64,000 nucleotides of DNA, from positions 2,046,001 through 2,110,000 of the forward strand of contig NZ_JARRAH010000001.1 in the NCBI RefSeq assembly GCF_030553305.1, read 5' to 3'. Positions within the stretch are counted from its first letter, which is position 1; every line of letters begins with the position of its first letter. Both the position numbers and the translations under genes were made by a program. A model generated the notes under the pieces. That model was not told the origin of the DNA and searched no databases. It saw only the letters and a program-made list of their open reading frames with translations. Of this stretch, positions 1,662 through 21,932 are shown one piece after another. The stretch is from Halomarina ordinaria (GTDB taxonomy: Archaea; Halobacteriota; Halobacteria; Halobacteriales; Haloarculaceae).

Positions 1662-2459
1662 GTGCGAGCCTTCTTGTACGAGAACGGGACCAGCGACCCC
1701 GTGTCACCGTCCGACCCCGCCTCGACCGTCCGTATCGTCGCCGGCGACTGCACCACCGAGTTCGAGGGCACCCGCGAGCAGGTCCAGCGCGGCTGCGTCG
1801 TCTGCCTGCTCAAACCCGACGACACCGTCCTCGTCCACGACGCCGACGGCTACCAGCCGGTGGCGTGGCTCACACGCCCCGAGTCCCGCTCCGTGACGCA
1901 CGACCCGCTGGTCGTCGAGGCGCGCGACGGCGACCAGTTCCTCCGCGTGACGGTCCACGAGTCCTTCGCCGATTACACCGTCCCCGCCGGGCCGGCCGGC
2001 GCCCCCGTCGGGACCGCCCCCGACGGCGGGGCGCTCGTCCGCACCCGTGGCGCGGTCGTGAACCTCGACTCGGGGGCGCGCTACGGCCTCCCCGCGGACG
2101 CCGTCGTCCTCGACGCGCGCTGCGACTGCGGCCTCCCGCGGATGCGCGTCGAGCGTGGAGCGGTCTTCGAGGTGTGTGTCGACCGCGCCTGCGAGTCGCT
2201 CGACGACGCGGTCCGCGAGGCCTTCGACCGCGCGTGGGACTGTCCCGACTGCGGTACCGACCTCAGGGTCCTCCGGCGCGGCGGCCTGCTCGCCGGCTGT
2301 GACGCCTACCCCGACTGCGAGACGGCGTTCGTGATTCCCGAGGGGGTCGTGAGCGGGACGTGTCCCTGCGGACTCCCGGCGTTCGAGACGCCCTCCGGCG
2401 TGCGCTGTCTGGACGCGACGTGCGACCGGCCAGGGGGTAACACGTTCGCCGGCCCCTGA
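1662..2459 (+). CDS. NucS-N-like domain fused to three topoisomerase-type C4 zinc fingers
   Basis: 265 residues with a GTG start. Residues about 20-80 (VAGDCTTEFEG, then KPDDTVLVHDADGYQPVAW) resemble the N-terminal DNA-binding beta domain of endonuclease NucS (formerly DUF91). The C-terminal nuclease domain of NucS is absent. Instead there are three CxC/CxxC...C-x4/5-C modules at about 150-175, 190-222 and 230-255, in the style of the C4 zinc fingers at the end of type IA topoisomerases. A role in single-stranded or branched DNA binding is inferred; no catalytic motif is visible. It is convergent with the DUF2391 gene, with one base between stops. Confidence 0.7.
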   Translation: MRAFLYENGTSDPVSPSDPASTVRIVAGDCTTEFEGTREQVQRGCVVCLLKPDDTVLVHDADGYQPVAWLTRPESRSVTHDPLVVEARDGDQFLRVTVHESFADYTVPAGPAGAPVGTAPDGGALVRTRGAVVNLDSGARYGLPADAVVLDARCDCGLPRMRVERGAVFEVCVDRACESLDDAVREAFDRAWDCPDCGTDLRVLRRGGLLAGCDAYPDCETAFVIPEGVVSGTCPCGLPAFETPSGVRCLDATCDRPGGNTFAGP

Positions 2460-2460
2460 C

Positions 2461-2889
2461 TCAGAAGACGGAGTCGGCGGTGGCGGCCCCGACGACGCTG
2501 AACACCGACCCGACGCTCACGGCCTTCGCGGTGACGGCCAGCCAGCGGCCGCGCTCGACGTCCAGTCCCGAGAGGAACGTCGACGGCGCGTCGAACGCCA
2601 GCGCGAGGACGATGACCGACCCGAACGACACGGCCATCAGCGAGAGGAAGCGCGCCGGAATCCCCGCCACGTCAACCTCCCGGTCCGGGTCGCGCGTGTC
2701 GGCCTTGTACAGCGCACCGTAGCCGATGCCGAAGACGATGGCCGTCGTCAGCAACCCCTGGAGGGTGCTCATGCTCTCCGCCAGCACCCACACCTCCTCG
2801 GTGACGACGAACGGTCCCGCGAGGAGGAAGCCGCCGACCAGTTGCTGGGCGACGTCCGCGGTCTTGAAACGACGGGCGGGTCCGACCAT
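2461..2889 (-). CDS. DUF2391-like integral membrane protein
   Basis: 142 residues with about four hydrophobic segments (VGGFLLAGPFVV, GLLTTAIVFGIGYGALY, FLSLMAVSFGSVIVLAL and the C-terminal VSVGSVFSVVGAAT). Size and pattern fit the DUF2391 family of small prokaryotic membrane proteins of unknown function. A short charged loop (KADTRDPDREVD) separates the second and third helices. It is divergent from the methyltransferase at 3006. Confidence 0.6.
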   Translation of the reverse strand: MVGPARRFKTADVAQQLVGGFLLAGPFVVTEEVWVLAESMSTLQGLLTTAIVFGIGYGALYKADTRDPDREVDVAGIPARFLSLMAVSFGSVIVLALAFDAPSTFLSGLDVERGRWLAVTAKAVSVGSVFSVVGAATADSVF

Positions 2890-3005
2890 ACCGGGACGAG
2901 TCGGCTATCGGGCATAACGCTCCCGTTCCGGTTCCCGTGCTCGCTCTCCGCGCGCCCCCGCGCCGAACCGGTCGCCCTTTGCCCCTCGCGCGCGCCGTCC
3001 CGACC

Positions 3006-3719
3006 ATGAGTGTCAGACGCGAGTTCGACGCGTGGGCCGCCGACGGCCGGGACAGGGGGATGGAAGAGCGCCACTGGCACACCGCGAAGCACGCGCTGGC
3101 GCGGATGCCCGTCGAGGAGGGGGACCACCTCCTCGACCTGGGGACGGGCAGCGGCTACGCCGGACGCGCCCTCCGCGAGACGGCCGGCGCCGGCCGGGTC
3201 TACGGCCTCGACGGCGCGCCGGAGATGGCCCGCAACGCCCGCTCGTACACCGACGATTCGGCGGTGGGGTACGTCGTCGCCGACTTCGGCGTCCCCGAGT
3301 CACGACGCGAGGCCGGCGCGGTCGGCCTCCCGTTCGCCGACGACAGCCTCGACCACGCCTGGAGCATGGAGGCGTTCTACTACGCGGGCGACCCGGCGTT
3401 CACCCTCTCGGAACTGCGCCGCGTCCTCAGACCCGGCGGGACGTTCTTCTGTGCGGTGAACTACTACGAGGAGAACGTCCACTCCCACGACTGGCAGGAG
3501 GACATCGACGTGGAGATGACCCGCTGGTCGCGCGCGGAGTACCGCGAGGCGTTCCGCGAGGCGGGCTTTCACGTCGCCGAACAGGACACCATCCCCGACG
3601 AGGAGACGGAGATACCCCCCGAGTCGGCGTTCCCCCACGAGGGGTGGGAGACGCGCGAGGCGATGGTCGAACGCTACCGGGTGTACGGGACGCTCCTGAC
3701 GGTGGGCGTCGTCCCCTGA
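3006..3719 (+). CDS. Class I SAM-dependent methyltransferase
   Basis: 237 residues. The start MSVRREFDAWAADGR lies just after a divergent promoter gap; the longer reading adds only proline/arginine-rich translated spacer. Motif I (LLDLGTGSGYAGRAL, about residues 42-56) binds S-adenosylmethionine, LDGAPEM supplies the acidic ribose-binding loop, and LPFADDSLDHAWSMEAFYY and LRRVLRPGGTFF are the usual post-II/III motifs of the UbiE-like Methyltransf_11 fold. The substrate is unknown; small-molecule or lipid methylation is more likely than RNA. It is convergent with the DUF1684 gene, with one base between stops. Confidence 0.8.
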   Translation: MSVRREFDAWAADGRDRGMEERHWHTAKHALARMPVEEGDHLLDLGTGSGYAGRALRETAGAGRVYGLDGAPEMARNARSYTDDSAVGYVVADFGVPESRREAGAVGLPFADDSLDHAWSMEAFYYAGDPAFTLSELRRVLRPGGTFFCAVNYYEENVHSHDWQEDIDVEMTRWSRAEYREAFREAGFHVAEQDTIPDEETEIPPESAFPHEGWETREAMVERYRVYGTLLTVGVVP

Positions 3720-17724: not shown

Positions 17725-20415
17725 TCAGTCGCTCTCCTCCGCGAGGCTGACGACGTCGTCGTAGTCGACGTCGCCGTTCTCGTTGAAGTCGAACGCGTCG
17801 TCGCTCTCGGTGACGCCCTCCGCGTCGACGTTCTCGAACAGCGCCTGCACGTCGTCGTCGTCGACGTCACCGTCGCCGTCGACGTCCTCGTAGTGGCCGT
17901 CGCCGTCGGGGTCGGTCGGCGCGTGGTCGCCGACGACCGCGGGCGGGCCGGTGGCGACGACGCCCGTCCGCGCCTCGGCGTCGATGGCGTCGCCGTCCTC
18001 GTCGTCCATCGCGTGTATCTCGACCTCGAGTTCGGTCGTCCCGGCGCCCCGGGCGTGCACGTCGAGCGACGCGAGCGTGACCCGGCGGCCGCCCGGCTGG
18101 ACGTGCTCGCCGACGTCGGCGACGCGGAACGTCGCCGAGGAACCGCTCTTCGCCACCTCGGCCTCCGCGAGACCGAGTTCCTCGGGGAAGGAGACGTCGC
18201 CGATGGCCGCCACGTTGGGGTCGGCGACGCTGACGGTGAGGCGCGCGCCGGAGAACCCGGCCGGCAGCGACGACGCCCGCACGTCGGCGGTGGCGGACCC
18301 GCCGCGCGCGACGGTCACCGACTCGACGTCGACCAGCACGTTCGGCTGGTAGACGTACAGCCCGTCGTTGGGGTACGAGCGGGCGGGACCGCCGAAGCCG
18401 TCCTCGCAGCAGAGGACGCGGCCGTCGTCCATCACGTAGACGTTGTCGATGTTCCGGAGCGCGTCGTCGGCGTCCTCGGGCGGGTCGGTGAAGTCGGGGC
18501 CGACGATGACCGGTTCGAGCGTCGAGACGTTGTAGTCGGCTTCCAGTTCGCCCCGGTAGACGACGCCGCCGTCGACGCGGTCCATCTGGATGTCGCCCGT
18601 GTCGTCGGCCAGGTCGTCGTTGAACTCGGAGATACCGAAGTAGACGAAGTCGCCGGGCTGGGCCCCGTCGACGCTGTCGACGCCCTCGGCCTTGTTGAAC
18701 TCGATGGAGGCACCCATCTCCTTGGCGGCCGCGCGGGTCTCGAGGAACGGCACCTTCCGGAGGTCCTCGTCGACGCCGCGTGGACCGTGCTCCTCGACCT
18801 GTGCGGCCCACTCGACGATTTCGTCGTTCGAGATGTAGCTCCGGTTGCCACCCTCGACGACCGCCCGGTCGGCCTCCTCCAGGGCGGTTTCGAGGTCCTC
18901 GCGCCAGTCGGTCTCGGCGTGCGCTTCGAGGTAGTGGACCTGGGTGACGTCGTCGTAGGTCGAAATCCACTGCTCTATCTCGGCGTTGCTCGCGTGGCCC
19001 ATCTCGAGCCACTCGACTTCGAGGTTCACGTCGGCCGGGGAGTGCCGCTCCCCGGAGTCGGCCACCGAGGCCGCGTCGTTGGTTATCTTCGGCGCGTAGA
19101 GGGACCCCTCGACGTCCATCGGGTCGTCGTAGCTCGGAATCGGCTCGTCGGCGATGAACTTGTAGATGCCCTTGCTGTCGCCGTCCGAGCAGCCGTAGGC
19201 GGTCCGCTCGTCGGTCAGGATGTCCGGCGACTCCCAGGAGGCGCGGCCCATCACGTAGTACTTGACGGGCTGCGGTTCGTCGGCAGCCGGGTCGCGGAAG
19301 TCGACGTGGTAGCCGTAGCGATACGGGTTCGGGTAGACGTCGCCGATGGGCGTCTGGGTGTTCTCGTCGTCCTCGCCCTGGTCGACGGGTTCGGCACCGA
19401 GGTAGTACGCGAGGAACTCGACGCCCGTCAGCGCCCAGTAGCCCTGGACGGACCAGGCGTCGTCGCCGTAGTACCCGTCGACGGCCTCCTGAATCTCCGA
19501 GGGGTTCGGGCGGTTCCAGAACTGACTGGCGGCGACGAGGCCCTCGCCGCTCCCGGCCTCCACGATGTCGCCGACCGTGTGGGTGAGCGAGACGCGCGGG
19601 TGGGCGTAGTTCTCCTCGGAGGAGATCATCGTCCCCCACGGCGAGAGGTCGCCGTAGCAGTTGATTCGCGTGCCGCCGAGGGCGCGGAACGCGTCGGTGT
19701 TCGCGAGGTTGATCGCGTCGTCGAGGTCGGCCTCCCACTCGCCGTCGTCGTCCTGGCTGAGCGGGATTCGGGAGACGTTCCCGGGGCTGTTCTCCCAGTT
19801 CGTGAAGAGGTAGCCCTCGGTGCCCTCGTCGTTCGTCGCGACGAACTGGTTGCAGTCGGGGTTGCTCGCGGCCAGCCCGTACTGCGTGCCCCGGAAGAAC
19901 GGCTGTTCGTCCCGCTGGGGGTCGAGGGCGTCCTCCCGGATGATGTCGGTGCCGTCGGGCGTCTGGGTCACGCCGAGGCGCTCCTCGCCGCCGTTGATGG
20001 GCTCTCGGCCCTGCGCGAGCAGGACGTACTCGCCGTTGCCCGCCCGGACGACGCCCTGTTCGTCTCTCGTCTGCGGGGTCGAGAGTTCGGCGAAGTCGTC
20101 GTTGTCGCCGTCGAGTTCGAACTGGAAGCCGCTGAAGTAGCCGATGCCGGCCCGGTCGAACGGCTCCGGGTTCTCCTCGCTCGGGTGCTGCAGGCTGTAC
20201 AGCAGGCCGCCGTCCTCGAAGACGAACGGTCCCGTCACCTCGGCGCCGTACGCCGTCGTCGAGAACCGCTTGAGGTGTCCCTTCACGCTCGGCGCCCCCG
20301 GCGTGTCCGACTCCTCGACCTCCGTCGAGTGTTCACCGCTCGCAACGCCCACCACGCTGGCCCCGAGCGCGGCGGCTACCGAGGAAGCCATCAACTTCCG
20401 CCTGGTAAGTTCCAT
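17725..20415 (-). CDS. phoX: PhoX-type secreted phosphatase (DUF839) with cohesin-like and dockerin modules
   Basis: 896 residues. A twin-arginine signal (TRRKLMASS, residues 4-12) is followed by a PhoX/DUF839 catalytic region (about 45-690); NCYGDLSPWGTMISSEENY (252-270) matches the family's NC..G..PWGT...EE core that builds the Fe/Ca site. Residues about 693-820 form a beta-sandwich resembling a cohesin, and residues 835-896 contain two calcium-binding dockerin repeats (DVDGDGDVDDDDVQALF and DFNENGDVDYDDVVSLA). Role: hydrolysis of organic phosphate esters outside the cell, feeding the Pst system next door. The catalytic assignment is firm; the function of the modules is inferred. Confidence 0.88.
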   Translation of the reverse strand: MELTRRKLMASSVAAALGASVVGVASGEHSTEVEESDTPGAPSVKGHLKRFSTTAYGAEVTGPFVFEDGGLLYSLQHPSEENPEPFDRAGIGYFSGFQFELDGDNDDFAELSTPQTRDEQGVVRAGNGEYVLLAQGREPINGGEERLGVTQTPDGTDIIREDALDPQRDEQPFFRGTQYGLAASNPDCNQFVATNDEGTEGYLFTNWENSPGNVSRIPLSQDDDGEWEADLDDAINLANTDAFRALGGTRINCYGDLSPWGTMISSEENYAHPRVSLTHTVGDIVEAGSGEGLVAASQFWNRPNPSEIQEAVDGYYGDDAWSVQGYWALTGVEFLAYYLGAEPVDQGEDDENTQTPIGDVYPNPYRYGYHVDFRDPAADEPQPVKYYVMGRASWESPDILTDERTAYGCSDGDSKGIYKFIADEPIPSYDDPMDVEGSLYAPKITNDAASVADSGERHSPADVNLEVEWLEMGHASNAEIEQWISTYDDVTQVHYLEAHAETDWREDLETALEEADRAVVEGGNRSYISNDEIVEWAAQVEEHGPRGVDEDLRKVPFLETRAAAKEMGASIEFNKAEGVDSVDGAQPGDFVYFGISEFNDDLADDTGDIQMDRVDGGVVYRGELEADYNVSTLEPVIVGPDFTDPPEDADDALRNIDNVYVMDDGRVLCCEDGFGGPARSYPNDGLYVYQPNVLVDVESVTVARGGSATADVRASSLPAGFSGARLTVSVADPNVAAIGDVSFPEELGLAEAEVAKSGSSATFRVADVGEHVQPGGRRVTLASLDVHARGAGTTELEVEIHAMDDEDGDAIDAEARTGVVATGPPAVVGDHAPTDPDGDGHYEDVDGDGDVDDDDVQALFENVDAEGVTESDDAFDFNENGDVDYDDVVSLAEESD

Positions 20416-20853: not shown

Positions 20854-21360
20854 TCACCGACCGCGCTCCAGTCGGCCGGCGACCGACTCGGGGAGACCCG
20901 CCCGGCGGACGTCCCTCCTCACTCGGTCGACGTCGTAGGTCACCCGCCGGAGGTCCACCCGCTCGCGGTCGAGGTCGAGGACGGCGTAGGCGGCCCGGGG
21001 GTCGCCGTCACGGGGCTGGCCGACGCTCCCCGGGTTGACCACGACGCCCTCGGGGAAGCGACGTACCCCCTGGACGTGGGTGTGGCCGGTCACCAGCACG
21101 CGCTCCTCGCCCAGCAGGGCCGCGGAGAAGAGGTCGGGGTAGACGTACCGGTCGGGGTCGTCGGGGTGGCCGTGGACGACGCGGACCCGGCCGTCGAACG
21201 CCCGCAGGGTCGCCGGGAGCGCGCCCAGCCACTCGACGTGCGAGCGGTTGAGGACGGCCCGCGCGTGGTCGAGACCGGCGCCCGCCGCCGCGCTCTCGAA
21301 CGTCGCGCCGGCGGCGAGTACCCGGTCGTGGTGGACGTCCGCGAGGAGGCCGACGCGCAC
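20854..21360 (-). CDS. Calcineurin-like phosphoesterase with internal deletion of metal motifs
   Basis: 168 residues, GTG start three bases after purO. The C-terminal two thirds are typical of haloarchaeal YfcE/MJ0936-type phosphoesterases: VRVVHGHPDDPDRYVYPDLF, VLVTGHTHVQ and VVNPGSVGQPRDGDPRAAYAVLD. The N-terminus begins normally (MRVGLLADVH) but jumps directly to HDRVLAAG, which aligns with the second half of the family's GNHDR motif. Roughly 55-65 residues holding the GD motif and the G-N of GNHD are missing in frame, so two metal ligands are lost. The reading frame is otherwise intact and codon use is normal. Likely inactive, or altered in metal use; possibly a recent deletion. Confidence 0.7.
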   Translation of the reverse strand: MRVGLLADVHHDRVLAAGATFESAAAGAGLDHARAVLNRSHVEWLGALPATLRAFDGRVRVVHGHPDDPDRYVYPDLFSAALLGEERVLVTGHTHVQGVRRFPEGVVVNPGSVGQPRDGDPRAAYAVLDLDRERVDLRRVTYDVDRVRRDVRRAGLPESVAGRLERGR

Positions 21361-21362
21361 CG

Positions 21363-21932
21363 TCAGTCGTTGACCACGGCCGTCTCGACACCCTCCCCGA
21401 CGGTCACGCCCACGGCGCAGACCGCGTGTTCGAACTCGTGGTCGTAGACGGCCCGCGCCGCACCGGCGGCGTCGGTCGCGTCGAGGTCGAACGCCGTCGG
21501 GCCGTCCTCCTCGTAGGTCGCCACGAGCGTCGGTTCGGTGACGCGCTCGACGACGAGCGCGTCGCGGCGGACCGTCGCCACGTACGCCTCGTCCTCGGCG
21601 ACGATACCCGCGATGCGCGGCGTGTCGTAGTCGTCCTTCTCGAAGTCGAGCGCGAGCAACGAGAGCGCCAGCGCGTCGCGCGCCGGATAGCCCATGGCGC
21701 GCTTCTCCGCGACGGGGTCGACGTGCGAGCCGTTGCCGACGACGGCCTCCTCCCCGACCGTCCGCAGGCAGTTGTAGGCGATGTAGGGGTTGTCCGTCTC
21801 CGGTGCGTCCGGCGTCGGCGCGACGGTCAGCGCCCCCTCGCGCTCGACGACCCGACGGTTGGGGAACGACCGCGAGGAGACACGGTAGGCGCCGATACCC
21901 GGTCCGACGACGACGAATCGACCGACGTACAT
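21363..21932 (-). CDS. purO: IMP cyclohydrolase, archaeal PurO type
   Basis: 189 residues. [26 protein letters not shown] at the start, [23 protein letters not shown] and [29 protein letters not shown] match archaeal PurO, which closes the ring of FAICAR to IMP in the last step of purine synthesis. Length is normal for the family. The start at 21932 removes a long untranslated upstream frame. Translationally close to the truncated phosphoesterase (three bases apart). Confidence 0.92.

Follow-up and report, generated by a model that had tools for sequence, protein, structure and literature searches.

Introduction

In the metallophosphoesterase (MPE) superfamily the aspartate of the GD motif bridges two metals, and the same fold serves in Vps29 as a scaffold without evident catalysis. 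Several members with solved structures are related to the protein considered here: the phosphodiesterases YfcE (1SU1) and MJ0936 (1S3L) have in common with it the superfamily and the C-terminal motifs, the streptococcal asymmetric Ap4A hydrolase/phosphodiesterase SapH/Spr1479 (3QFM, 3QFN) is, among fold matches whose titles name an activity, the nearest to the intact orthologue of this protein, and an MPE from Sphaerobacter thermophilus (3RQZ), whose title states no function, is the best solved match by both sequence and fold. Literature searches on SapH, on Halomarina metallophosphoesterase and on purO or IMP cyclohydrolase with Haloferax found nothing. In PMC8366450 the signature of class III phosphodiesterases is given as D-[X]n-GD-[X]n-GNH[E/D]-[X]n-H-[X]n-GHXH. 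Here we describe an MPE gene of Halomarina ordinaria in which the centre of this signature is missing, located in a stretch of 64,000 nucleotides that we refer to as the window.

Results

The shortened gene lies between purO and a gene encoding a PhoX-family protein (Table 1), and its translation begins MRVGLLADVHHDRVLAAG. The product scores 53.9 bits against Pfam Metallophos_2 (cut-off 27, E=2.6e-14), with the match limited to residues 51-132, which correspond to positions 76-153 of the 154 in the profile and hence to its C-terminal half only. The motif residues Asp8, His10, His11-Asp12 (from GNHD), His63, and His93 and His95 (GHTH) are present, and ADVH is fused straight to HDRV, leaving the protein without the GD motif and without the Asn of GNHD. 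Set against the class III signature (PMC8366450), the D, the H element and GHTH are there, GD is missing and GNHD is reduced to HD. Both the short form (38.9 bits) and the intact orthologue (45.4 bits) fall below the cut-off of 56.25 bits for the NCBIfam YfcE subfamily (TIGR00040), which sets the orthologue apart from YfcE itself. By our delimitation the gene does belong to the purO-linked haloarchaeal MPE subgroup, since it immediately follows purO in the same orientation and falls within the clade.

Table 1. Features at and around the shortened MPE gene in the window
Feature	Position	Strand	Basis or remark
PhoX-family protein, 896 aa, with C-terminal extension	17725..20415	-	PF05787; downstream neighbour of the short gene
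Shortened metallophosphoesterase (MPE) gene, 168 aa	20854..21360	-	ORF, GTG start at 21360
Deletion junction DVH/HDR, 2-base overlap	21330..21333	-	DNA alignment with G004/G005 orthologues
purO, archaeal IMP cyclohydrolase	21363..21932	-	PF07826 / TIGR01922; upstream neighbour

Full-length orthologues occupy the same place after purO in two other Halomarina genomes, G005 (locus L004) and Halomarina halobia (G004, locus L005, whose coding sequence equals that of L033 in NZ_CP119992.1 of H. halobia PSR21, so that L033 was treated as a duplicate). They are 77-79% identical to the short gene over the retained 158 codons, and the start codon and the distance to the upstream gene are the same in all three, purO ending two bases from the GTG start in intact and shortened forms alike. 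DNA alignment with both orthologues revealed a single clean gap, the aligned region measuring 780 bases in them and 567 in the short gene; the difference is 213 bases, or 71 codons, that the orthologues hold and the short gene lacks. The junction reads GACGTCC/AC/CACGACC, with the overlap of 2 bases at 21331-21332. The DxH-GNHD spacing is 73 residues in the two orthologues and most commonly 52 in the family (61 of 103 scored loci); measured against the latter the loss is 50 codons, so that, judging from the sequences, the true loss would be 71 codons if the ancestor carried the extra loop and 50 if it did not, and both sizes are multiples of three. Loop insertions of 13-21 residues just before GNHD were observed in separate haloarchaeal groups (L004, L005, L019, L030, L044 and L049, with spacings of 65-73 against 52). 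The initial annotation of the window had described an in-frame fusion of ADVH to HDRV with loss of GD and of the Asn of GNHD, which is borne out by the orthologue alignment; its figure of about 60 absent residues falls between the two measured values. In the retained part 22 of 22 invariant residues are kept.

Two origins of the gap were considered and rejected. The pentanucleotide CCACG flanks both sides of the segment in the orthologues, but recombination between these repeats would yield DVHDR and not the observed DVHHDR. Relocation of the segment within the genome was also discounted, since the segment has just one strong match there, inside the intact paralogue (E=4.6e-16), and the next is at E=0.007.

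The lost residues include Gly33-Asp34 and Gly80-Asn81 (orthologue numbering), which are invariant in 29/29 aligned full-length relatives. Among 109 related loci, a survey that leaves out L001, L003 and the duplicate L033, DxH, GD, GNH and GHxH are present in one frame in 103, with a DxH-GNH spacing of 51-73 residues. Six loci were missed by the motif pattern: in L073, L080 and L094 both motifs are present with 49 residues between them, L052 and L090 appear disrupted, and the sixth is L106. No short form was seen among the 109 loci, and from the sequences compared it appears to be private to the H. ordinaria lineage. The initial annotation had taken a short form shared by orthologues as evidence against its reading; both true orthologues proved to be full length and, together with the 103 loci complete in their motifs, rule out an ancestral short form. 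In a maximum-likelihood tree the short protein groups with the purO-linked copies of G004 and G005 with 100/100 support (the bootstrap being not fully settled), which places the deletion on the lineage of the window genome, later than its separation from G004 and G005. A DNA pattern for DVHHDR matched 175 of 392 genomes of the order and none of the 30 loci read was a phosphoesterase, but this pattern, which also admits Met for Val/Ile, is not discriminating, its matches lying far above chance expectation. A wider protein survey gave a match in 281 of 293 genomes, a figure that is unusable for coverage because the loop insertion of the query itself splits many matches.

AlphaFold models were obtained for the short form (pLDDT 90.8, pTM 0.85, with the lowest confidence, in blocks of 71 and 80, immediately beyond the junction) and for the orthologue (pLDDT 93.0, pTM 0.89); the former was built on an alignment of intact relatives and is thereby biased, so that it cannot show real folding. 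Helix 13-22, strand 28-32, helix 42-50 and strand 75-78 of the orthologue model have no counterpart in the short model, and a complete two-metal core fold is lacking from the predicted structure of the short form. At E<=0.001 Foldseek gives 181 matches with the intact orthologue but only 19 with the short form, and 3RQZ is found with both (TMq 0.75-0.79 for the short model). 3RQZ has the full MPE core, whereas the short form aligns with it by sequence over residues 37-167 and not over the N-terminal core. SapH is matched by sequence at E=3e-9 by the intact orthologue and only at E=2.7e-4 by the short form, and it is not among the best 50 fold matches of the latter. Vps29 is among the fold matches of the short model, with a TMq of only about 0.3-0.45, and unlike the short protein it keeps the complete fold.

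We next consider the evolution of the remnant. Over the 158 retained codons, omega was 0.38 (bootstrap 0.23-0.66) on the branch of the window genome (G000) versus 0.17 (0.08-0.29) between the sisters, a difference with a bootstrap range of 0.03 to 0.51 in a test that applies the crude NG86 method to three sequences. The corresponding differences span zero for purO (0.26 versus 0.22; -0.14 to 0.25) and for the intact paralogue (0.35 versus 0.32; -0.18 to 0.22). At 22 sites G000 is unlike both agreeing sisters; 13 of these changes polarise to G000, 4 to the sister side and 5 to neither. The remnant thus looks to be under mildly relaxed constraint. At 62 well-conserved columns, G000 departs at 3 and the intact sisters at 3 and 4, and in the tree the short gene has a branch (0.25) no longer than that of the intact G000 paralogue (0.29), which makes the rate signal weak. 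With respect to the features expected of a pseudogene, the frame is intact, omega is raised yet under 1, and none of the invariant residues outside the gap has changed. A neutral calculation indicated that an unconstrained period covering more than about a fifth of the branch is unlikely (P about 0.04) at a dS of 0.355, and higher dS allows less (P 0.065 at a tenth for a dS of 0.6). Taken with the kept residues, this implies a young deletion or, failing that, continued selection on some part of the remnant.

The window genome encodes a second, intact phosphoesterase (at G000:C1:1740718, with the match to the missing segment at G000:C1:1740568) that is 56% identical. Whereas purO is found in 8/8 Halomarina genomes, an MPE follows it in 3/8 (shortened in G000, full in G004 and G005) and is absent beside it in 5/8, one of which (G003) is only 73% complete. 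In those five genomes the next long frame after purO encodes what we take to be a PstS-like phosphate-binding protein, and each has one phosphoesterase match, which groups in the tree with the paralogue and not with the purO-linked gene. Since an intact paralogue exists and five of the eight genomes of the genus are without the gene beside purO, the purO-linked MPE would appear to be dispensable. Outside the genus, the purO-linked MPE of Halolamina pelagica CDK2 (L052, about 2700-3480) is split over two frames just before GNHD, by either a frameshift or a draft-assembly error. At L090 of Halosegnis rubeus F17-44 (about 2420-3243) only the C-terminal part of the MPE is readable, adjoining a transposase-like frame (DUF772 22.0 bits, just below the cut-off of 23.1). 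The purO-linked MPE has probably been lost or damaged repeatedly.

Discussion

The reading that we consider likely is that a dispensable purO-linked MPE gene of Halomarina lost its function through a young deletion that preserved the frame. It draws on the full-length syntenic orthologues, on the loss of the invariant Asp34 and Asn81 and on the lack of a short form in the 109 loci, and further on the restriction of strong matches to the missing segment to the paralogue, the absence of the gene beside purO in five of eight genomes, the raised omega and the 13 versus 4 polarised changes; that other copies seem broken in unrelated lineages (L052 and L090) points the same way. Under this reading a recent in-frame deletion would have inactivated the gene by removing helix 1, strand 2, helix 2 and strand 3, and with them the expected metal-bridging Asp and the Asn of GNHD, so that a working bimetal site, and probably also a stable core, could not form in the short protein. 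Preservation of the frame may be down to chance alone, at a likelihood of one in three, or may reflect the lesser harm done by a readable frame, and the remnant is probably still translated from the unchanged GTG start, without phosphoesterase chemistry. Several points weigh against this reading: the kept invariant residues and the few departures at well-conserved columns would also be expected of a working protein, the AlphaFold model is confident, albeit biased by its alignment of intact relatives, the paralogue has a branch no shorter than the short gene's, and the omega test compares three sequences by a crude method.

The initial annotation had left the product as a dead regulator, a metal-altered enzyme or a fresh pseudogene; the last of these fits best, and nothing that we found favours a regulator or a new metal site. 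We regard it as rather unlikely that the short product has been kept as a non-catalytic protein, by analogy with Vps29 a scaffold, a regulator or a partner of the intact paralogue. The undamaged frame with its full set of invariant residues, the high model confidence, the Vps29 chains among the Foldseek matches and the unchanged start and purO spacing are all compatible with such a role, but the kept residues are largely those of the active site and motifs (GHTH, HGHP, NPGSVGQPRD), for which a dead scaffold has no need, the model of the short protein is without several of the core elements that Vps29 retains, no other examined lineage has the short form, and constraint is, if anything, relaxed. 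A more specific version, in which selection maintains a short non-catalytic MPE, for example as a modulating partner of the intact paralogue or of PurO, is in our view very unlikely; if true, it would represent a natural mini-MPE without two strands of the core. A metal-altered enzyme, in which Asp8, His10, His63, His93 and His95 would form a mononuclear site with changed chemistry, is highly improbable: five of the seven motif ligands do remain and the His-Asp of GNHD adjoins the DxH motif, but no aligned relative departs from the Asp and Asn that are lost here, the strands on which the placement of the other ligands depends are predicted to be gone, and model confidence is lowest precisely beyond the junction.

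An artefact of assembly, cloning or culture, with a full gene in the living species, would account for a short form confined to one genome and might be encouraged by the GC-rich sequence (69% in the window). Against it, the gap is in frame between unique flanks that overlap by 2 bases only, with no collapsed repeat; the assembly (3.61 Mb in 6 contigs, 99.93% complete, with the gene on a contig of 2.78 Mb) is not a fragmentary draft; and the gene is missing or broken in relatives too. We therefore judge an artefact to be distinctly unlikely.

If the deletion is a young loss of function, the finding is ordinary as biology; it provides a snapshot of gene loss, in which a single genus displays the gene in full, shortened in frame, and missing. 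It also carries a warning for annotation, since a frame-preserving deletion leaves a protein above the Pfam cut-off though its active site cannot be complete.

The conserved pairing of purO and MPE across haloarchaea may be a more interesting lead than the deletion itself. An upstream purO in the same orientation was found in 33/51 rows read of the purO type (a count with at least two duplicate rows among the 33, the window's own locus included and two further rows, L052 and L090, not scorable by the pattern) versus 0/11 rows of the other MPE subgroup, which makes the pair probably ancestral and suggests, from gene order, a role for the intact MPE near purine nucleotide metabolism. Rows with the pair include L006, L008, L010, L011, L015, L035 and L047; the flanks covered are mostly about 1.1-2.8 kb, and the gap between purO and the MPE ranges from 2 to 1393 bases.
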